Made by a program: the position numbers and the translations under genes. Shown here piece by piece: positions 47,707-61,060 of a stretch of DNA of 64,000 bases (position 1 is its first letter; each line of letters opens with the position of its first letter). Below the pieces are notes generated by a model, which saw only the letters and a list, made by a program, of their open reading frames with translations, was not told the DNA's origin and ran no database searches. Origin of the DNA: a virus; the IMG/VR virus record IMGVR_UViG_3300032224_001676, positions 1 through 64,000 of that record, one strand, 5' to 3'.

Positions 47707-50154
47707 TTAAACTAATCTAATTTGTATAAAACTTCCGTTTCTGTATAATCCACCTATTGGGATACCTGCTGCTGCTGCGGAGGCGTCATTAGCATAACTA
47801 GCTAATACTAATCCTGGTAGTATTATTGTTCCGTTTCCTGTTGATATAGATCCTGAGATTGCTAATGACCCTGTTACTTGTACTTGTGAACCAGAAGCGT
47901 ATAATAAATTACTTCTACTAATATCACTAGTACCATTACCTACAATAAATGAAAAATCATTAGAATTTTCTAAGTTATAAGCACCTTGAACATGTGACCA
48001 AGCGCCTCCTGCTATAGTATAATATCCTTCAGTATGTGATCTACCTCCTTTTGCTGTTGTGTAGTAACCTTCAGCATGAGAACCTACACCAACACTAATT
48101 GTACTTTCGCCTTCAGCGTGTGAGTTTTGGCCTACTGCAGTTGTGAGTACTCCTTCAACGTGGGTTAAATCTCCTATGGCTTTTGAACCATATCCTTCAG
48201 CATGTGAATAATTACCTATTGAAACTGTAGTGTTACCTTCAGCGTGTGAAGCTAATCCTTGTGTAGTAGTAGTATATCCTTCAGCGTGAGAATAATATCC
48301 ATTTGTTGTTGTATGATCACCTTCAGCATGCGATCCATCAAAATTAGCTATAGTGTAAGCACCTTCAGCGTGTGCATTTGTTCCTATTGCTGTTGTAAGT
48401 GTTCCTTCAGTATGAGTATAATAACCTAAAGCTTTAGTAGAGTTTCCTTCAGCATGTGAGTTTATACCTACCGCTGTTGATACAAAACCTTCAGTGTGTG
48501 ATCCATCTCCTATTGCGGTTGTTTGAGTACCTTCAGCATGAGAAAAAATACCTATTGAAACAGATCCTGAACCTTCAGCGTGTGAGAAAGCACCTGCTGA
48601 TACTGTGAGTAATCCTTCGGCGTGTCCGTAACCTCCTTTAGCTGTAGTGGATATACCTTCAGTGTGGTCTCCAGGTCCGTTTGCTTTAGTTTGAAAACCT
48701 TCAGCATGTGATTGAGAACCTGATGCTATTGTTTGGTATCCTTCAGCGTGTGAGTATGAGCTTGACGCTATTGTTTGGTATCCTTCCGCGTGAGAATAAG
48801 CGCCTGATGCTAATGTTTGGAGTCCTTCAGAGTGGGAATATATACCTACTGAGGTAGTGTTATTACCTTCAGCGTGAGATAAATCTCCTTTTGCTGTTGA
48901 TTGACCTCCTTCAGCATGAGACCAATCACCTATCGCTTTATTAGAACCTCCTTCAGCATGAGACCAATTACCCACTGCTGAAGTAGAAGCACCTTCAGCA
49001 TGTGAGAAGTTACCTATTGTTGTTATATTCTCTCCTTGAGCTAAACTACCTGTAAGTTGCATTGATCCAGTTGCTTTAATAACATTTTGAATACCTAATG
49101 ATACAGCTATATTTCCATTTGGGTAGTAATATTTACGATTATCCCAATCAATAGCACTTGTTCCATTTATGTCATTTAAGAATCTAGCATCCCAATCTAC
49201 GCTTGTACGCCCAGATGCATCAATTAAATAATTACCTCCCCAATCTACTACCACTGTGTGGCCATCTGTAGCGTATAAGTATCTATTATTAGGATCTACA
49301 GATATAGCATTATTATCTGTATCGTATAAACCATACCCAGATTTAAATTTTAATGATCCAGAAATGGTAGTATTACCTTTTAAATTTACTGTTACTCCGG
49401 ATCCTGAGATTATAAATGATCCTGTAACTGCTCCGTTTCCATATTGGCGTATATAACGAGCATCACCAGTTGCTGTGTCGAATGGGGCTACTGTTAACCA
49501 TTGTCCTACTGAACCTGATTTATATATGTAAGCGTCACCATTATTAGCTGGGTTAGCATCTCCTGATACTACCCATAATAATCCATTAGTTAATGAGCTT
49601 GTAACAGCTCCTGATGAAGATACTGCTAATGAAGCGGATGTACCTGTAAGTACTGCTGTTAATGATACAGATACGTTACCAGCTGTTGGAAAAATTCCAT
49701 TAACTGATGTCACAAATTGTGACGTGTTAGCAGATGTTAATATATTTTGGCCGTTTATAGTACCAGCATTACCAATAGCTATGTTATTAGTAATTGTAGC
49801 GTTATTAGCTACAAGATTTGATAAGTCTATATAAGATGCTGTTAAAGCGTTTATCGCTAAATCTACATAAGATGCGGTTAACGCGTATGAGGCAGTAGAA
49901 GATAGAACTGCTAAATCTACATAAGACGCGGTTAAAGCATAAGATGCTGTAGAAGATAAATTAGCTAAATCTACATAAGACGCTGTTATTGCATTTGTAG
50001 CGGTACCATTTAATGATCCTGTGATTGAAGCATTAGCTAAAAAATCATTAAAGGAGGCTGTACTTAAGAAACTAGATGTAATATATGTGAAATTACCATC
50101 TAATTCAGCATATGTTAATTCATATCCTTTTTCTAAACGGAGAGTAAGTGCCAT
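47707..50154 (-). CDS. large tail fibre/adhesin with YadA-head-like repeats (815 aa)
   Basis: Same N-terminal domain as the fibre at 43743 ('MALTLRLEKGYELTYAELDGNFTYITSSF'). Then several 'ITASYVDLAxLSSTASYAL' repeats (a coil-like stalk), a central beta region with 'SGSVGQWLTVAPFDTATGDARYI', and ~23 SHAEG repeats from about residue 380 to 720. A short tip follows. A trimeric receptor-binding fibre is the best reading. A 9-bp hairpin lies upstream of the start. Confidence 0.8.
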   Translation of the reverse strand: MALTLRLEKGYELTYAELDGNFTYITSSFLSTASFNDFLANASITGSLNGTATNAITASYVDLANLSSTASYALTASYVDLAVLSSTASYALTASYVDLAINALTASYIDLSNLVANNATITNNIAIGNAGTINGQNILTSANTSQFVTSVNGIFPTAGNVSVSLTAVLTGTSASLAVSSSGAVTSSLTNGLLWVVSGDANPANNGDAYIYKSGSVGQWLTVAPFDTATGDARYIRQYGNGAVTGSFIISGSGVTVNLKGNTTISGSLKFKSGYGLYDTDNNAISVDPNNRYLYATDGHTVVVDWGGNYLIDASGRTSVDWDARFLNDINGTSAIDWDNRKYYYPNGNIAVSLGIQNVIKATGSMQLTGSLAQGENITTIGNFSHAEGASTSAVGNWSHAEGGSNKAIGDWSHAEGGQSTAKGDLSHAEGNNTTSVGIYSHSEGLQTLASGAYSHAEGYQTIASSSYSHAEGYQTIASGSQSHAEGFQTKANGPGDHTEGISTTAKGGYGHAEGLLTVSAGAFSHAEGSGSVSIGIFSHAEGTQTTAIGDGSHTEGFVSTAVGINSHAEGNSTKALGYYTHTEGTLTTAIGTNAHAEGAYTIANFDGSHAEGDHTTTNGYYSHAEGYTTTTQGLASHAEGNTTVSIGNYSHAEGYGSKAIGDLTHVEGVLTTAVGQNSHAEGESTISVGVGSHAEGYYTTAKGGRSHTEGYYTIAGGAWSHVQGAYNLENSNDFSFIVGNGTSDISRSNLLYASGSQVQVTGSLAISGSISTGNGTIILPGLVLASYANDASAAAAGIPIGGLYRNGSFIQIRLV
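48000..49010 (-). repeat. coding repeat: second SHAEG motif array
   Basis: The same ~14-residue unit as in the downstream fibre gene, about 23 copies, in a different order and with different variable residues. The presence of arrays in two fibre genes suggests recombination between them is possible. Confidence 0.75.
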
Positions 50155-50210: not shown

Positions 50211-50699
50211 CTATTTGTTTAAAAATTGTTTTAAATTTGGACGGAAATAATTTACTGATTTCATTACTTTACGATCTCGAGTACGATATACAATCCAATA
50301 ATCACCTACTTTTTCATAGTGACATGGTTCACCTTGTTCTGTTTCACGAACTCGAACTGTAAAATTAGCTTCTTCTTCTGTTTTACAAGCTTTAGACATA
50401 TTACTTGCCTGCACCTCTAAGTAAGCGGGTAGAATTTGGTCTTTTAAACCGTGCAACATAGCCCCGTTTCCTAAAGAAACGTAAGTAATGTCGCATAATG
50501 CGTCTAAGACCTCTACGATGTTTCCTGTTTCGCATGCGTGTTTATATTCTTCTAGTTCTTCTAATATAAAATTATAAACAAACATCCATTCATCTTTAGA
50601 TGGAATATTAGGTTCATAATTATTTGGTTTACCCATTGTAGCGTTAAATTCCTCTACTTCGCTAACAAATGGAACATAATTTTCTTTAGATTGAGACAT
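50211..50699 (-). CDS. MazG-like NTP pyrophosphohydrolase (162 aa)
   Basis: All-alpha NTP-PPase. 'FILEELEEYKHACETGNIVEVLDALCDITYVSLGNGAML' gives the E-x2-E and E-x2-D metal motifs around residues 48-72, followed by 'YLEVQASNMSKAC'. It would hydrolyse a nucleoside triphosphate, possibly a non-canonical one, during infection. It is the last gene of the deazaguanine operon. The start is MSQSKEN; a near-identical upstream ATG exists. Confidence 0.75.
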   Translation of the reverse strand: MSQSKENYVPFVSEVEEFNATMGKPNNYEPNIPSKDEWMFVYNFILEELEEYKHACETGNIVEVLDALCDITYVSLGNGAMLHGLKDQILPAYLEVQASNMSKACKTEEEANFTVRVRETEQGEPCHYEKVGDYWIVYRTRDRKVMKSVNYFRPNLKQFLNK

Positions 50700-51381
50700 G
50701 ACCATTATTTATTTTAAGTGAATCAAAAAATTCTTTACGTGCTAAATTATCGTTTTCCATAAATACACCTGATGCTTTAGTAGTAACCATTGCAGCACCT
50801 TGATGTTTAATACCTCTACAACTAACACAATTGTGAGTAGCAACTACAGTTACAATAACACCTAAGTTACCTTCACAAACTTTATTTACTGCTTGATGAA
50901 TTGCTGCTGTTAATTGTTCTTGAATAGCTCCTCTACGACCAAAGTGTTCTACAATACGATTTAATTTTGATAAACCGATTACTCTACCTTCAGCACCTGC
51001 AATGTAACCAATATGTACTACACCTCTAATTGTTTGGTGGTGATGTGAACACATTGAAGTTAATTGAATATTACGTTCAATAATTACTCCATCATAACCA
51101 TCTGATGGGAATGAAGTAATATCAGTAAATCCATTATAACGACCAGCCCATAAATCATTAACATATGCTTTAGCTACACGGCGAGGTGTATCGGCAGAGT
51201 TAGGATCGTTTTGCCAATCACACTTTAATGCTGTTAAGAAATTACCAAAATGTTCAGTAGCTTCTTCAATCATTTGCTGTTTTTCATCGTCTGTTAATGG
51301 ACGATCTAAGGCAGAACCATTTGCTAAACCTGTTTTCACACACTCAATATCGTTGTGAAATTTTCTTCTATTATTTTCCAT
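50686..51381 (-). CDS. folE: GTP cyclohydrolase I (FolE)
   Basis: Turns GTP into dihydroneopterin triphosphate, the first step towards preQ0 and folate. Signatures: 'DTPRRVAKAYV', 'TSMCSHHHQTIRGVVHIGYI' (zinc cysteine and histidines) and the second metal or pterin region 'VATHNCVSCRGIKHQGAAMVT'. The end 'RKEFFDSL' matches the family. The ATG is 6 nt from the -7 box of the promoter at 51388-51419. I start at MENNRRK. Confidence 0.93.
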   Translation of the reverse strand: MENNRRKFHNDIECVKTGLANGSALDRPLTDDEKQQMIEEATEHFGNFLTALKCDWQNDPNSADTPRRVAKAYVNDLWAGRYNGFTDITSFPSDGYDGVIIERNIQLTSMCSHHHQTIRGVVHIGYIAGAEGRVIGLSKLNRIVEHFGRRGAIQEQLTAAIHQAVNKVCEGNLGVIVTVVATHNCVSCRGIKHQGAAMVTTKASGVFMENDNLARKEFFDSLKINNGHVSI

Positions 51382-51387
51382 ATAATG

Positions 51388-51419
51388 TAAATATAACAAT
51401 TAATTTTAATTTCTCCAAA
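51388..51419 (-). promoter_or_regulatory. phage promoter, TTTGG-N19-TATATTTA
   Basis: TTTGG (51415-51419), 19 bp, TATATTTA (51388-51395), then CATTATATGG with the folE ATG 6 nt after the box. It lets FolE and MazG be expressed apart from the rest of the cassette. Confidence 0.7.
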
Positions 51420-51920
51420 TTAGATTGAGTAAATGGATGTGCGATTTCTATTAAATCCATTTTCATCATTACAACCCATTCCTACAATCCATTCATCATT
51501 TAATTCAAAACCATAGATATGATTTGGAAATTCAATATCTTTACGTTTACATAACGTAACTAATGTTATAGATTTAGGTTCTTTAATTTTCATATATTCT
51601 ACTAGGTAGTTCATAGTATTACCTGAGTCTATTAGATCATCTACTAGATATAAATGTTTACCTTTGATTGGTGTTTCTAAATCTTTAGTGATTTCAACAT
51701 CGCCTTGTTCTTTCTTACCAATATAACTTTTCGCTCTAACAAAATCACATTCTATATTAAAATTTAGATTTTTAACAAGTTCAGCAAAAAACATAAAACC
51801 TCCATTTAACACACAAGCAAATACTACTTGATCAGGAGTGTTGTAATGTTTTTGATTTATTTTATGGCCAATAGAAAAACATTTATCTTTGATATTTTCT
51901 GAGTAGATTAGTGGTTTCAT
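51420..51920 (-). CDS. hypoxanthine-guanine-type phosphoribosyltransferase (166 aa)
   Basis: Type I PRTase: 'VVFACVLNGGFMFFAELVKNL' (the K/G loop region), 'ECDFVRAKSYIG' and the PRPP motif 'LYLVDDLIDSGNT'. The last block 'DEWIVGMGCNDENGFNRN' is the base-recognition region of purine PRTases. The substrate could be hypoxanthine/guanine or, in this cassette, a deazapurine base; that is speculation. Adjacent to folE. Confidence 0.8.
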   Translation of the reverse strand: MKPLIYSENIKDKCFSIGHKINQKHYNTPDQVVFACVLNGGFMFFAELVKNLNFNIECDFVRAKSYIGKKEQGDVEITKDLETPIKGKHLYLVDDLIDSGNTMNYLVEYMKIKEPKSITLVTLCKRKDIEFPNHIYGFELNDEWIVGMGCNDENGFNRNRTSIYSI

Positions 51921-52207
51921 TATTTGTTATTTTTAATCATTTGTGCTATATCATCTACGCCAACATATTTTAAAACTCTACTTGATTTTATATGTACTAA
52001 TGTAGGATAAAAATCTACATTAAACATATCAAATATGTCTCCATTATTAGTAGTTTCTTCAATTCTATATACAGGAATCATTTTTTTAGAAGCATGTTCT
52101 TGAATTATAGGCTTTGCTATACCACAGTGAATACAATCTTCTGAGTAGAATAATATGAAACTATCATTCTTATCTTGGAGAATTTCTTTTAGTAATTGTT
52201 TATTCAT
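51920..52207 (-). CDS. thioredoxin-like protein (95 aa)
   Basis: Small thioredoxin fold: 'DSFILFYSEDCIHCGIAKPIIQEHA' with a CIHC redox pair near residue 29 and 'FNVDFYPTLVHIKSS' with the cis-proline. It could keep ribonucleotide reductase or Cys-containing enzymes reduced. One-base overlap with the PRTase. It is the second of two in this operon. I start at MNKQLLKEI, just after the QueE stop. Confidence 0.75.
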   Translation of the reverse strand: MNKQLLKEILQDKNDSFILFYSEDCIHCGIAKPIIQEHASKKMIPVYRIEETTNNGDIFDMFNVDFYPTLVHIKSSRVLKYVGVDDIAQMIKNNK

Positions 52208-52208
52208 T

Positions 52209-53000
52209 TTAAACTTCTCTTTTAGTGTCAAAGGCTATAATATGTTCTCTTCCTGTAAAGTTATAGCCGTTATCTCTACAAAAATCCATTACCATAGGAT
52301 ATACTCGAATTAATTCATCTCTTGTATCGCCAGGAGGCATTAACCAAGTCTTACGTTTTGGGATATCCATTTCAACTCTAAATGCTTCAATCTCAGCCCA
52401 TGCTTCAGGCATTTCAATAGGGTTACAAACAGGTTTAAAATGATAATCATAATGATAATCTAACGTTTTCCTGATTACTTCTTTATCCAAACGGTGTTTA
52501 TTATGTTGGTCCACCATCTTTTGGTCCGCAATTTTACCTTGCGGTGTAAGAGTCCCAAGTGCAGGAACACTGTTACTAAACTTAGGGCTAAGAGATATAA
52601 GCCCAATAGGGAAATCAGTTTCAATGAAGTGAGAACCTTCCGTTTCAATTGTGATAAATAAGCCACGTTTTTCAGCTAAATGAGTTAATTCGTTTACTAG
52701 ATCAGGATGCATAGTAGGTGAACCACCTGTTAGCATCATTTCTCTAATGTAAGGGTTACTATCATAAATAGCTATAATATCATTAAATGTATATTTTCCT
52801 TTTTCAGGATGAATACTTGTGTACCAACTATCACACCACCCACCTTCTCCAAACCAACATCTATGAGTACAACCTGTAGTTCTGATAACTACTGTGGGCA
52901 TACCGGCTCTACTACCTTCTGATTGTACTGCAGTGTATAATTCTACAATTGGTAGTTTTTTATTATAATCTTCTATTCTACCTGGTTTTTTATTCTCCAT
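52209..53000 (-). CDS. queE: 7-carboxy-7-deazaguanine synthase (QueE)
   Basis: Radical-SAM enzyme converting carboxytetrahydropterin to CDG. 'IVELYTAVQSEGSRAGMPTVVIRTTGCTHRCWFGEGGWCDSWYT' carries three cysteines (C-x3-C-x7-C) for the 4Fe-4S cluster, a spacing different from standard CxxxCxxC. 'EMMLTGGSPTMHPDLV' is the GG region. I start at MENKKPG; upstream ATGs overlap QueD by up to 38 nt. Confidence 0.9.
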   Translation of the reverse strand: MENKKPGRIEDYNKKLPIVELYTAVQSEGSRAGMPTVVIRTTGCTHRCWFGEGGWCDSWYTSIHPEKGKYTFNDIIAIYDSNPYIREMMLTGGSPTMHPDLVNELTHLAEKRGLFITIETEGSHFIETDFPIGLISLSPKFSNSVPALGTLTPQGKIADQKMVDQHNKHRLDKEVIRKTLDYHYDYHFKPVCNPIEMPEAWAEIEAFRVEMDIPKRKTWLMPPGDTRDELIRVYPMVMDFCRDNGYNFTGREHIIAFDTKREV

Positions 53001-53457
53001 AACTTGCTGAGTTTCTTTCATGTTCATATACTTCTACTTCAGTTGCTCTTACTCTGCCTTCGGTTTCTGTTTTTAGAAAATCATTTATTACATAATATAA
53101 ATGTTCGGCAAATTTCTCACAACCTACATCAGGTAAAATTCTTAATTGAATTATACCATCTTTATCCATTTGTTTAAAATTTTCTAGATACGGATCATCT
53201 ATAGATACAACTGTAGTGTGATCTAATAGGAATGCAAAGTAATCTTTTGGAGACATACCTTGAATTTGAGTTTTTGCTCGTTTCATACCTCCAAAATCCC
53301 ATACCCAATTACGGTGATCTAATTCTCCTTCAAACCATACTCTAAATGATACTGCGTACCCGTGAAGAAATCTACAGTGTGTTCCATCTGCTTTCCATTG
53401 TCTAAAGCATGCAGAGTATCCATCAAATAATTTTGTTGAATTATATTTTGTCTCCAT
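52990..53457 (-). CDS. queD: 6-carboxy-tetrahydropterin synthase (QueD)
   Basis: Makes carboxytetrahydropterin from the FolE product. 'CRFLHGYAVSFRVWF' supplies a catalytic cysteine/histidine block, 'NWVWDFGGMK' the D-F metal region, 'LDHTTVV' the second histidine site, 'GCEKFAEHLYYVI' and 'TEVEVYEHERNSASY' the family C-terminus. Size (155 aa) is a little larger than most QueD. Confidence 0.88.
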   Translation of the reverse strand: METKYNSTKLFDGYSACFRQWKADGTHCRFLHGYAVSFRVWFEGELDHRNWVWDFGGMKRAKTQIQGMSPKDYFAFLLDHTTVVSIDDPYLENFKQMDKDGIIQLRILPDVGCEKFAEHLYYVINDFLKTETEGRVRATEVEVYEHERNSASYGE

Positions 53458-53712
53458 TTATCCTTCGTTTAACCAGTTAATGATTTCACTAAACGATCTG
53501 TTTCCTGTAAAGCGTTTAAGTTCTCTTCCATTTTCCATCAATACAACTGTAGGAACACTTCTAACTTTCGCTTCTGCTATGATAGCAGGATCAGTATAGT
53601 CTACATTTCGTTTTTGTACTGGGATTTGCTTTGCTATTTGCTCCATAGTTGGGCCTAATGCTTTACATGGTTCACACCATTCGGCACTATAATAATAAAT
53701 TGATTTACTCAT
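53458..53712 (-). CDS. thioredoxin (84 aa)
   Basis: Classic active site 'YYSAEWCEPCKALGPTM' (WCEPC near residue 12) and 'VRSVPTVVLMENG' with cis-proline. Shortened thioredoxin fold. It may reduce QueC, DpdA or ribonucleotide reductase. It overlaps queC by 8 nt and so is within the modification operon. Confidence 0.85.
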   Translation of the reverse strand: MSKSIYYYSAEWCEPCKALGPTMEQIAKQIPVQKRNVDYTDPAIIAEAKVRSVPTVVLMENGRELKRFTGNRSFSEIINWLNEG

Positions 53713-54604
53713 GATTTTCTAATATTTGTTCTACATGTTTAACTACTGTTTCCCAACTTACAGGACCTGTCTCATCAGCATAGCCAACTGGATCTACTTT
53801 TCCAAGTCTCATAAATGCTTCAACTCGTTCTACAGATGATGCTGATTTGTAATCACTATACCAGGTTTCGAAAAAGACGTTTATTTCATCTTCTGTTCCT
53901 TCAAATCTTTTTTCTGATTTTATTATTCTAATTGGTTTGTAAGATGTGTTGGTGAAGGAATATACTGTGTTAAAATTAAGACCTAATTGCTCACAGCAGT
54001 CATCTCCATCTACTAAAATACCAGCCTTATTATTATCAAGATAAGGTGTATAATAATATACTTTTTCAGCACCCCAATTACCTAGTTTAAATGCTTCAAA
54101 ATCAGCATCTCTAAACTCTTGACGACAGTCAGGATAAATAGCATGATCACCCGCATGTATCCCCATTGCAATAGCACATTCAGTATTCTTTTGTTCAGCA
54201 ATTGATAATGCAACTGCTTGAATAATAGAACTAAAAATCTTATTACGATTAGGAACTACTGTTGCTTTCATATTCTCTTCAGCATAGTGTCCTTCAGGCA
54301 CTTCTTCACCTCCAGTTACTAATGCTGAGTTTAATAGTTGAGATAAACCATCTAGTTTAATAACTTGATGTTTGACAGGATAATTAGATTTGAATCCTTC
54401 AACTCTAGTATGCACTGGTTTATTAGTGAATAGAGTTTTATTAATATACTCAACTAAATCTTTAGCACGCTCTAACTCAACTTTATGTTTTTGCCCATAG
54501 TCGAATGATAATGCTGTTACTTCATAATCATTAGCGAGTAAATGAAGTAATAATGTGGAGCTATCCATTCCTCCACTTAACGATAAAACTGCTTGTTTCT
54601 TCAT
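53705..54604 (-). CDS. queC: 7-cyano-7-deazaguanine synthase (QueC), zinc site lost
   Basis: ATP-dependent enzyme that makes preQ0 from CDG. The PP-loop is 'LSLSGGMDSSTLLLHLL' and 'VTALSFDYGQKHKVELERA', 'VVPNRNKIFSSIIQAVALSIA' and 'IAMGIHAGDHAIYPDCRQEF' are QueC signatures. The usual C-terminal cysteine cluster (SCY...CGxCxxC) reads 'TSYKP...SDYKSASSVERVEAF' instead, so zinc ligands appear missing. A rewired form or partner dependence is possible. Confidence 0.88.
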   Translation of the reverse strand: MKKQAVLSLSGGMDSSTLLLHLLANDYEVTALSFDYGQKHKVELERAKDLVEYINKTLFTNKPVHTRVEGFKSNYPVKHQVIKLDGLSQLLNSALVTGGEEVPEGHYAEENMKATVVPNRNKIFSSIIQAVALSIAEQKNTECAIAMGIHAGDHAIYPDCRQEFRDADFEAFKLGNWGAEKVYYYTPYLDNNKAGILVDGDDCCEQLGLNFNTVYSFTNTSYKPIRIIKSEKRFEGTEDEINVFFETWYSDYKSASSVERVEAFMRLGKVDPVGYADETGPVSWETVVKHVEQILENHE

Positions 54605-55410
54605 ATATTGTTTATTTTACGGAATAAATCTACGTTATTTAATATTAAAGCCAAATTTAAATCGTAAAGATGTATATTCATTATATCATCTATTCTAGTT
54701 TTTGGTTTTGATGTTAAACCATAACTTTGATAAGGCATATTATCTATACCTGCTAAAATTGGATTTGATGTGTCTATTGTTTCAATACAACTTAAGTGGT
54801 GATAATAACCAAATTCTTGAGGTAATTGACAACCTAATAAATGTAGTTTAACTTCTTGCCATGGTTCATTTAATAAGTAATCATCTGCTAATGTTTTTAC
54901 AAACGAGATACGACCCATCATCTTAGCAAAATTTGGGTCAGGATGTGATGATAAATCATTGTACCAACTTGCTCCGTATGAGATAGCAATTTTTTTATAA
55001 CCTAATAAGTTCTTTAATGTGTCAAAACATTCTAAACCCTCCATAAGATTATTTGCTTGAACAACCGCTACGAATTTAGTATTTGGATAATCATATTCTT
55101 TTTGAATCCATTCATCTGCGCTTTCAAGTGTTTTGTCTTTGTCTTGCCAATGATCAGGAACTATAAATTCATCTGGTTGGAGTTTTTCTAACCAATATAA
55201 TAATCTGTCTTCTGAATATGGTGTTCCTAGTTCATGAAGACTATTATCCATTATGATGTAACGGCCTTCTTTACTAGATTGGAGAAAATACTCTTTATAC
55301 TCTTCGTTTTGATCTAATAAATGAGGTAGACAATAGTCATACTTATTAAATTGTTTACTTCGTTCTAAAAGACATAAAGGTACTTCGTGGGATACTTTTG
55401 GTTTAAACAT
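54601..55410 (-). CDS. DpdA-like DNA transglycosylase candidate (269 aa)
   Basis: Inferred to insert preQ0 or a relative into DNA by base exchange. It directly precedes queC and is the expected TIM-barrel size. Features: 'YIIMDNSLHELGTPYSEDRLLYWLEKLQPDEFIVPDHWQDKDKT' (D and H rich, in the style of a TGT active site), 'IAISYGASWYN' and 'LHLLGCQLPQEFGYYHHL'. These resemble phage DpdA families as I recall them. A search against DpdA profiles would decide. Confidence 0.65.
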   Translation of the reverse strand: MFKPKVSHEVPLCLLERSKQFNKYDYCLPHLLDQNEEYKEYFLQSSKEGRYIIMDNSLHELGTPYSEDRLLYWLEKLQPDEFIVPDHWQDKDKTLESADEWIQKEYDYPNTKFVAVVQANNLMEGLECFDTLKNLLGYKKIAISYGASWYNDLSSHPDPNFAKMMGRISFVKTLADDYLLNEPWQEVKLHLLGCQLPQEFGYYHHLSCIETIDTSNPILAGIDNMPYQSYGLTSKPKTRIDDIMNIHLYDLNLALILNNVDLFRKINNI

Positions 55411-58374: not shown

Positions 58375-60099
58375 TTATCCTTCACAACTTATACATTCTG
58401 ATAAGCGCTGTAAATTATCTCCTCTCAGTACTGATTCAGTACGTAGATAATATAATGTTTTAATTCCTAGTTTATGAGCTTCTTTATGTACCTGGCTAAT
58501 CCATTTTGGGGTATCATTTGGGTCAAAGCATAAGTTTAATGAAATAGCTTGGTCTACATATTCTTGTCTAACACCATTTTGTCTTACAATTTCTAATTGG
58601 TTGATTTCTTTAAATGTCAAAAATACTTCTTTTTCTTCATCAGTTAAAATATAAGAAGGTACATTAATAACTGAGCCTTGATCTTTTAAGATCTGATCCC
58701 AAACGCTATCAATATTATATCCTTTAGTTTCAAGTAATTCTTCTAATATTTTATTACGCTTAATGAATACACCTTTTGCTGTTTTTAGATTATAAACATT
58801 AGCAGGAATAGGTTCAATTGAAGGTGATACACCTCCTGAAATATGTGCATTTGACACTGTAGGTGCAATTGCTAGATGGTGAGTATGTCTCATGCCTGTT
58901 CCCTTACACCATTCTGGCTCACCATATAATTCCGCTTGGTCACGAGATGCTTTTAAAGCGCCTCTTTCAATAAAGTCAGATATCATTCTTGTATAGGCAG
59001 TCGCTTGAATACCTACAAACGGTAAATTCTTTGATTGTAAAAACGTATGCCATCCTAAAACACCAATCCCAATTGCTCTACCTTTAGTAGCTGAGCGAAC
59101 TGTGTTTTCCATAAATTTTATATTCTTAGCTCTGTCAATAAATTCTTGTAATACGCCTTCTAAAAACCAACAAGTTAACTCAGGTAATGTCATCCCATTC
59201 TCAAATGTATAGTCTTTCCATTCATCCCAGCGAGCTAAGTTTAAAGATGATAAACAACAAATAAATGAATGTAACTCATCTGTATATAATGAGATCTCAG
59301 AACATATATTAGTCATTGATACGTGTAAGTTATTCTTAGTATAAGCTAGTGGGTTAGCATTATTAACATTGTCCTCAAACATAATATAAGGTTCACCTGT
59401 TTCAAGACGTGTTTTTAATATTTCACCCCACAACTTTATTGCTTTAGGATCTTTATTCTCCAAATCAGCCATAAATGTGTCATCAATAACAACACATTGA
59501 TGTAAATTTAAACATTGGCGGTTAACATCACCTTTTGGTCTACGAATTTGTAAAAACTCTTCAATATCAGGATGAGTAATATTTAAGTTAACTGATGCTG
59601 CTCCTCTACGAACACTACCTTGATTAGTAGCTAAAATAGTTGAGTCGTAGATTTTAGCCCACGGAACAATACCCTCAGACACACCATTATCTTTAATTGC
59701 TTTACCTCGACCTCTAATGCGAGATAAACCAATACCAACCCCACCACCTTGAGATGATAACCTCATTAATTCAGAATTAGCGTCGGCAATACCTTCAATA
59801 CTATCTCCAACATCAATACCAAAGCATGAAATAGGCATTCCACGTTCTGTACCTAAATTTGATAATACTGGTGATGCTAAACATAGCCAATTTTTAACTA
59901 TTGCCTCATAAAAGAATGGTTGTAAATCTTTACGCTTTAATCTACGCGCTGAGGATTTAGTTACTCTTTTATAGGCGTCGAATACGTCTTCATCAGGCAG
60001 TAAATATCCTTTAGATATCATACTAACCGCTATTTCATCCATCCATTCAGGGTAATTTTTACCCTTGATCCATTTACTTGTGTCCACTTGTATACTCAT
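58375..60099 (-). CDS. nrdA: class I ribonucleotide reductase large subunit (NrdA)
   Basis: Reduces ribonucleotides to deoxyribonucleotides. The active-site block 'MTNICSEISLYTDE' (N-x-C-x-E), the cysteine in 'FICCLSSLNLA', 'PSIEPIPANVYN', the radical-path tyrosines in 'KTLYYLRT' and the redox CxxC at the end ('ECISCEG') are all present. 574 aa, shorter than E. coli NrdA (about 760), lacking the N-terminal ATP cone. It probably has no dATP feedback switch. Confidence 0.95.
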   Translation of the reverse strand: MSIQVDTSKWIKGKNYPEWMDEIAVSMISKGYLLPDEDVFDAYKRVTKSSARRLKRKDLQPFFYEAIVKNWLCLASPVLSNLGTERGMPISCFGIDVGDSIEGIADANSELMRLSSQGGGVGIGLSRIRGRGKAIKDNGVSEGIVPWAKIYDSTILATNQGSVRRGAASVNLNITHPDIEEFLQIRRPKGDVNRQCLNLHQCVVIDDTFMADLENKDPKAIKLWGEILKTRLETGEPYIMFEDNVNNANPLAYTKNNLHVSMTNICSEISLYTDELHSFICCLSSLNLARWDEWKDYTFENGMTLPELTCWFLEGVLQEFIDRAKNIKFMENTVRSATKGRAIGIGVLGWHTFLQSKNLPFVGIQATAYTRMISDFIERGALKASRDQAELYGEPEWCKGTGMRHTHHLAIAPTVSNAHISGGVSPSIEPIPANVYNLKTAKGVFIKRNKILEELLETKGYNIDSVWDQILKDQGSVINVPSYILTDEEKEVFLTFKEINQLEIVRQNGVRQEYVDQAISLNLCFDPNDTPKWISQVHKEAHKLGIKTLYYLRTESVLRGDNLQRLSECISCEG

Positions 60100-60109
60100 T
60101 TTTTATATT

Positions 60110-61060
60110 TTATAAATCGTCCCAATCTGCTGTTGATTTTGAATAACTTGTTACTCTTCCTGCAAAGAAATCTTGGTGTGTTTTACCACTTGTTAAATGA
60201 CCAAACCACTCAATTTGTTTTAGTAAGTTTGGGTCAATGTCATTATAAATTGCAGTGTAACCTAATTCTATCATTTTTTCATTAGCTCGTGCTTTAATGA
60301 AGTTCTTTAATTGATCAACATTTAACCCATCAACAGCTCCCATCTCAAATGCCTTATCAATAAAATCAAATTCTAATTGTACTGATGTTTGGCATGCTTC
60401 TATTACTGTATATCTTAATTTGTTAGTATTTAGTTCGGGTTGTTCTTCAAGTAATGTTCTAAACAGCCAACATCCTGCTTTAGAATGTAATGATTCATCT
60501 CTAACACTCCATTCAACAATCTGACCTGTTCCTTTCATTAAGTTTCTTAATTGGAAACTCATTAATATAGCAAACGAACTAAATAAATTTACTCCTTCAG
60601 TAAATGCTGAGAATATAGCTAATGATAATGCTCTTTCTTCTAATGTCTCACCTGGTGTCTCGATTAAACGCTCAATTTTCGCTTTTGATGTTTCGTCTTC
60701 TAGGAATGCTTGAAAATCATCTAAACCTAATTCTTCATTTAAGCGAGCGTATGCTTCAGCATGAATTGATTCAAAATCAGCAAATACACGAGCCATAGCT
60801 TGTATTTCAGGTTTTGGGAACCACATTGATACTTTTGTTGACCAATAATCATTTACATGAACCTCAGTTTGAGCAAATGACTTTAATATGTTTCCAATTA
60901 AATTCTTTTCAGGTTCGGTTAATTTTCCTTTCCAGTCACCTAAATCAGATGCTAATGGAACTTCATCTGCTAACCAATGTACGCGATGTTGATCTTTATA
61001 GAAATCAAACGCTTGTTGATATTCAAACGGTTTATAAAATAATCTTGGGTCAGTTATCAT
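60110..61060 (-). CDS. nrdB: class I ribonucleotide reductase small subunit (NrdB)
   Basis: Di-metal radical subunit. Metal and radical residues: 'FESIHAEAYARL' (E, H, and the radical tyrosine), 'FTEGVNLFSSFA' (E) and 'VRDESLHSKAG' (E, H). 'FAQTEVHVNDYWS' gives the first acidic ligand, here Glu where Asp is common. 316 aa. It ends 10 nt before nrdA and overlaps the helicase stop by 4 nt. Confidence 0.95.
   Translation of the reverse strand: MITDPRLFYKPFEYQQAFDFYKDQHRVHWLADEVPLASDLGDWKGKLTEPEKNLIGNILKSFAQTEVHVNDYWSTKVSMWFPKPEIQAMARVFADFESIHAEAYARLNEELGLDDFQAFLEDETSKAKIERLIETPGETLEERALSLAIFSAFTEGVNLFSSFAILMSFQLRNLMKGTGQIVEWSVRDESLHSKAGCWLFRTLLEEQPELNTNKLRYTVIEACQTSVQLEFDFIDKAFEMGAVDGLNVDQLKNFIKARANEKMIELGYTAIYNDIDPNLLKQIEWFGHLTSGKTHQDFFAGRVTSYSKSTADWDDL

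Follow-up and report, generated by a model that had tools for sequence, protein, structure and literature searches.

Among the described 7-deazaguanine DNA-modification systems, those of phages CAjan and Rosebush comprise FolE, QueD, QueE, QueC and a DpdA, and their DNA contains dPreQ0 at 28-32% of G (PMC6884629). For this gene set, Hutinet et al. (2019) predict 'preQ0 or ADG', the latter being 7-amido-7-deazaguanine, and they list Campylobacter phages as 7-deazaguanine-bearing without a known DpdA (PMC6884629). In two of these, CP220 and CPt10, 100% of dG is replaced by dADG (PMC8306585). The canonical QueC (PF06508 cluster 1) is marked by a zinc-binding C(x)8CxxCxxC motif, in whose region an essential Tyr lies, and by SGGxDS, YxQxHxxE, VPxRN and YPDC (PMC13329287). 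In this study, we found that the virus record IMGVR_UViG_3300032224_001676 (IMG/VR; 127,786 bases), whose positions 1-64000 are the whole stretch analysed and are called the window here, carries at 50211-55410 what we consider, with good confidence, to be a cassette with which a T4-like phage modifies its DNA with 7-deazaguanine, with probable guanine salvage based on a hypoxanthine-guanine phosphoribosyltransferase (HGPRT). The cassette appears to be a variant of the known viral modification, set apart by its phosphoribosyltransferase (PRT) and by a QueC-like protein without zinc-binding cysteines.

Nine minus-strand genes, checked one open reading frame (ORF) at a time, make up this stretch, and neighbours overlap or nearly abut, with spacings of -38 to +20 bases. 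In 5' to 3' order they encode a DpdA-like protein, a QueC-like protein, a thioredoxin, QueD, QueE, a thioredoxin-like protein, HGPRT, FolE and a MazG-like protein. With domains assigned from Pfam, PHROGs and NCBIfam, QueD (6-carboxytetrahydropterin synthase, 52990-53457) matches PF01242 (E=1.5e-13) and a QueD-like PHROG (9e-37), the QueE-like radical SAM protein (52209-53027) matches PF04055 Radical_SAM (E=4.6e-8) and a QueE-like PHROG (2e-47), and FolE (50686-51399) contains the GTP cyclohydrolase I domain PF01227 (E=1.4e-41; 142 bits against a cut-off of 27). A scan of IMG/VR with the DpdA-like protein gave at least 558 relatives, of which the best 80 were kept, and a relative was called complete when one contig held DpdA, QueE, FolE and MazG together (n=39). 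The gene order is kept across dozens of these contigs at ~50% protein identity, which is far beyond chance, and the DpdA gene is linked to the 7-deazaguanine synthesis genes, QueC and QueD being present in 39/39 complete cassettes. A sequence-only reading of this DNA had placed FolE, QueD, QueE, QueC and a DpdA-like protein here in one tight minus-strand run, and had taken them for a modification cassette with its own FolE; both points are borne out by the genes, the fold and the relatives described below. It had named only five of the nine genes, passing over HGPRT and the two thioredoxin-like genes within the range that it described and the MazG-like gene next to it, and it had raised neither a guanine PRT, nor the loss of the QueC zinc motif, nor a possible complete replacement of guanine.

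The gene content suggests a route in which GTP would be converted by FolE, QueD and QueE to 7-carboxy-7-deazaguanine, which the zinc-less QueC-like enzyme would turn into ADG or preQ0. The TGT-fold (tRNA-guanine transglycosylase) DpdA would then remove guanine from the completed phage DNA and put this base in its place, so that restriction is blocked, and the expelled guanine, together with phosphoribosyl pyrophosphate (PRPP), would be returned by HGPRT to GMP and further to GTP, refilling the pathway. The sequence-only reading had also held that FolE frees the phage from host pterin supply; independence of the host FolE stands, whereas GTP would still come from the host.

The protein encoded at 54601-55410 (269 aa) has no Pfam or NCBIfam match and matches PHROG 19058 (E=9e-46), whose function label is unknown. 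The missing Pfam match is uninformative, because the Pfam TGT model PF01702 also fails to match the annotated DpdA of phage VpKK5, and a PDB search with the single sequence gave chance matches only. An AlphaFold2 model based on 68 aligned sequences from the window and IMG/VR (pLDDT 94.5, pTM 0.92) shows eight alternating strands and helices, as in the (beta/alpha)8 fold of TGT, and with this model all 50 PDB matches listed by Foldseek are tRNA-guanine transglycosylases or 7ui4, the bacterial DNA preQ0 insertase DpdA (E ~1e-7). On this model the protein is a TGT-fold enzyme, the fold on which the sequence-only reading had staked its assignment, and we predict it to be a DpdA-type DNA-guanine transglycosylase. 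Among isolated phages, its relatives include proteins of the Campylobacter Firehammervirus phages CP220/CPt10, annotated as hypothetical (38.5% identity over 98% of its length, E ~1e-42), and the 'DNA guanine transglycosylase' of the Flavobacterium phage vB_FspM_immuto_2-6A, hereafter immuto (35% over 98%, E=4e-47), with weaker matches in Cellulophaga phiST, Bacillus BSTP/BSP7, Chryseobacterium MA9V-3 and others. The Campylobacter protein is thus, on sequence similarity, a strong candidate for the missing transglycosylase of those phages. Residues D55, D86, R167, H190, G193 and D213 are invariant in 92 DpdA-like sequences; D86, Q118, H190-G193 and D213 align with D143, Q187, Y242-G245 and D264 of E. 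coli TGT (profile of the diverse set A1; weak, E=0.007), we infer D55 to be the other catalytic Asp, and the HLLGxxxPxxF...D-S/T-x-P motif aligns with 7ui4. Cui et al. are said to have named such an enzyme DpdA3 in NAR in 2023 and to have tied it to complete replacement; the present protein is a candidate member of that subfamily.

The protein encoded at 53705-54604 (PF06508, E=1.3e-37), a putative 7-deazaguanine amide/nitrile synthase, has QueC 3bl5 and 2pg3 as its nearest solved folds. In 71 full-length relatives, including the window and immuto proteins, SGGxDS, YxQxHxxE, VPxRN, YPDC and TSY, the last with the essential Tyr, are kept in 71/71, whereas the four-Cys zinc motif is found in 0/71, its positions being S, V/T, S and S in the window and immuto. 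The protein thus keeps all the residues known as needed by the published motifs (PMC13329287) and lacks the zinc motif, and was filed as QueC-like rather than as canonical QueC. It also exceeds canonical QueC in length by ~70 residues, and a beta-hairpin (225-251) is predicted at the place of the zinc loop. The zinc motif is kept by the phage QueCs of CP220, BSP7 and Youna2. The zinc-less QueC of immuto, which is 61% identical to the window protein, probably makes preQ0, because immuto encodes QueF (PF14489, PF14819), which needs preQ0; by analogy, a zinc-less QueC can probably make preQ0. Zinc-free QueC enzymes offer a natural set for testing what zinc does.

It is very likely that the phage DNA carries a 7-deazaguanine, and the base is predicted to be ADG or preQ0, gene content alone being compatible with either. 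The absence of QueF and of an amidotransferase-type QueC, from which the sequence-only reading had argued, was confirmed for the window and for the 127,786-base record: QueF, a formyltransferase, a second QueC and a QueC amidotransferase (Gat) domain were not found, and a single QueC is present, in a record that may be incomplete. Its further step to preQ0 itself does not follow, as CAjan and Rosebush with this gene set carry dPreQ0, whereas CP220 and CPt10 carry dADG, and CP220 has the DpdA relative. CP220/CPt10 share with the window not only this protein but also QueD, QueC and FolE in the genome and the lack of a Gat-QueC gene, the single QueC of CP220 having 219 aa; in CP220, however, the genes are scattered, the QueC has the zinc cysteines and there is no PRT. 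Immuto shares QueD, QueE, FolE, MazG, a PRT and the ribonucleotide reductase besides the DpdA and the zinc-less QueC, but it differs in the presence of QueF and a formyltransferase, in the type of its PRT (xanthine-guanine phosphoribosyltransferase, XGPRT) and in the location of QueC ~11 kb from the rest.

Complete replacement of G may plausibly occur in this phage, because its DpdA-like protein groups with those of CP220/CPt10, phages with all G in their DNA replaced. Alternatively, the cassette might set preQ0 at only a fraction of the guanines, as in CAjan and Rosebush, with HGPRT and the thioredoxins belonging to unrelated nucleotide metabolism. The gene set is the same as in those two phages, where dPreQ0 makes up ~30% of G (PMC6884629), no QueF or Gat domain was found in the record, and the QueF of immuto suggests that a zinc-less QueC can supply preQ0. 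CAjan and Rosebush have a DpdA of another subfamily, however, and the nearest DpdA from a phage with measured DNA, that of CP220, gives 100% dADG. Also, the placement of the PRT is too consistent for an unrelated gene, being found between QueE and MazG in 36/39 complete cassettes. We consider this partial replacement possible but rather unlikely.

The HGPRT of the window (51420-51920) contains the PRPP loop LVDDLIDSGNT and was assigned by this loop together with the HGPRT profile TIGR01203 (137.5 bits, slightly under the cut-off of 150), and HGPRTs in PDB match it (E=2e-28). The PRT of the 36 cassettes adjoins FolE in 33; 22 are HGPRT-like and 14 are short XGPRT-like proteins, and on the DpdA tree the type switches at least five times, with four switches forced by well-supported branches. 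One slot in the cassette is thus served by two PRT families, whose common substrate is guanine. We propose that the guanine set free by DpdA is probably recycled by the cassette HGPRT. Replacing a single G uses up one dGTP and one GTP. With ~40,566 guanines in the 127,786-base genome and a burst on the order of 100, full replacement would set millions of guanines free in each cell.

The PRT could instead make the nucleotide of the 7-deazaguanine base itself, the modified base then also entering DNA as a deoxynucleoside triphosphate through the polymerase. The location of the PRT in the cassette, the ribonucleotide reductase upstream, and a nucleotide-kinase-like gene, which adjoins DpdA in CP220 and immuto and here lies elsewhere in the genome, would fit such a route. 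It would, however, leave the DpdA conserved in the same cassette superfluous, and the textbook substrate that the two PRT families share is guanine. Crippen et al. reportedly saw no dADG phosphates in the pools, which also counts against it, and we regard this route as improbable. Still more improbable is that the cassette boosts queuosine in host tRNA: FolE, QueD, QueE and QueC are common to the queuosine pathway, but the TGT-fold enzyme has only 269 aa and no CxCxxC zinc motif of tRNA TGTs, no QueF was found in the record, and the closest relatives of the DpdA-like protein come from phages with modified DNA.

Recycling of expelled guanine by HGPRT may extend beyond this cassette. In a tblastn search of 50,697 phage records with the immuto PRT, 41 records matched, 36 of which are phages with que genes or their close kin, the other five being unannotated. 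The match lies on or beside FolE in 16/41 (seven Vibrio, one of them unannotated kin, two Sphingomonas, three Stenotrophomonas, two Pseudomonas and two Brevundimonas phages), immuto itself accounts for 4/41, phages of the Cellulophaga phiST type, whose que genes are located away from the match, for 5/41, and PA5oct-type jumbo phages for 11/41. Regions were inspected for VpKK5, MMDA13, a Stenotrophomonas phage, MaInes and MIJ3. In the Pseudomonas jumbo phage MIJ3, the only PA5oct-type record inspected, gpt directly adjoins queE (L197:2995-4372), and in some unrelated que phages the PRT adjoins FolE. The Queuovirinae of VpKK5 type share FolE, QueD, QueE, QueC and DpdA with the window, but in them the PRT is fused to FolE. 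The FolE proteins of VpKK5 (L189:3998-4900), MMDA13 (L190:3989-4876) and the Stenotrophomonas phage (L191:3971-4864) have ~300 aa, with the GTP cyclohydrolase domain starting at about residue 117; the N-terminal part, unannotated in the records, matches the XGPRT model (VpKK5, E=1e-8; the others weaker) and keeps RGG-x-PA, DD-x-x-D-S/T-G-x-T and W-x-x-PWE. The gene next to the fusion is an annotated queuine tRNA-ribosyltransferase (DpdA). PF00156 is absent from four control phages that have a related ribonucleotide reductase but neither a clear QueD nor a match to the DpdA profile, the DpdA search having been run without a positive control. We therefore put forward tentatively, as a proposal with slightly less than an even chance, that guanine recycling belongs generally to 7-deazaguanine DNA modification, as a part of it that has had no name so far: phages exchanging G would bring their own HGPRT, XGPRT or XGPRT-FolE fusion and use the expelled guanine to make the replacement base, in the present phage with a zinc-free QueC and all guanines replaced. 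The literature searched gave no link between a PRT and DpdA. If the proposal is true, recycling would be the missing economic step of base-swapping DNA modification, and a PRT in the cassette or fused to FolE would be its genomic marker.

Four points weigh against recycling combined with complete replacement by a zinc-free QueC and a DpdA of TGT fold. CP220, with fully replaced DNA, encodes no PF00156 PRT, so host enzymes can suffice and a PRT of the phage's own can be dispensed with. Some XGPRT-FolE fusions sit in phages whose DpdA is of the annotated queuine-tRNA-ribosyltransferase type, so the presence of a PRT does not go hand in hand with complete replacement. Canonical QueC is regarded as zinc-dependent, and with the zinc site lost here the product of the QueC-like protein is uncertain. 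Lastly, the sequence-only reading had called for both profile and structural comparison of the DpdA-like protein; the structure model gave the TGT fold, but profile-profile scores to TGT and to the DpdA of phage 9g were not significant with 68 close relatives, and the comparison gave slight information when the diverse set A1 was used; homology to TGT/DpdA rests on the fold and the direct relatives.

As for the other features of the cassette, the QueE cluster motif is CX3CX7C, not CX3CX2C, in the window and in 56/62 relatives, and also in phiST and immuto, and the protein, which passes the Pfam Radical_SAM cut-off, was filed as QueE-like; another spacing variant of QueE, Cx14CxxC, is described by the model TIGR04508. 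FolE is listed with a TTG start and probably starts, judging from the sequence, at an ATG six codons inside. The thioredoxin at 53458-53712 has a CEPC motif (PF00085, E=4.4e-15), a thioredoxin being present in 36/39 complete cassettes, and the thioredoxin-like protein at 51920-52231 (PF00085, E=3.9e-8) has an ATG a few codons inside its listed TTG start. The phage ribonucleotide reductase lies just upstream of the cassette (58375-61060), and the cassette thioredoxin is probably its reductant. The MazG-like/PRA-PH nucleotide pyrophosphohydrolase gene at 50211-50705 (PF01503, E=3.8e-8; PHROG 671, E=2.4e-27), the downstream neighbour, lies within three ORFs of FolE in 38/43 contigs and is a conserved neighbour to which the proposed mechanism assigns no role. 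A P-loop kinase (PHROG thymidylate kinase) was considered as a cassette member and rejected, its homologue being located 53 kb off (G000 108426-109001; L004:12426-13001); homologues of this kinase adjoin DpdA in CP220 and immuto.

The phage is assigned as T4-like on the basis of matches to major head protein, portal, prohead protease, tail sheath, UvsX and DnaB-like helicase. This agrees with the sequence-only reading, which had also named Bacteroidetes as the host group. The host is probably a marine member of the Bacteroidota, and the evidence for Bacteroidota is indirect: the nearest isolated relatives are the Flavobacterium phages immuto, with a ribonucleotide reductase 64% identical, and a Shine-Dalgarno signal is not above chance (2/61 genes, against 1.2 in shuffles).

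In the window, G-containing 6-mer palindromes occur at 0.97 of expectation, which is not informative on restriction protection, and TGCA, CTAG and GCGC, all 4-mer palindromes, reach 0.55-0.65 of their expected frequency. Two large proteins rich in 'SHAEG' repeats (window 47707-50154 and G000 80491-82680) are probably virion fibre proteins, and a 634-aa protein (G000 85551-87455) made of repeated 'FNQPIGNWDVSKV'-type units resembles BspA-like surface repeats. An F..MQ(K/R)LAG peptide recurs near the ends of several proteins (G000 98814-99857, 109027-109434, 116471-119251 and 124747-125538), and LKQIIKEEL-like stretches occur in other proteins; these peptides are possibly capsid-targeting or propeptide tags.

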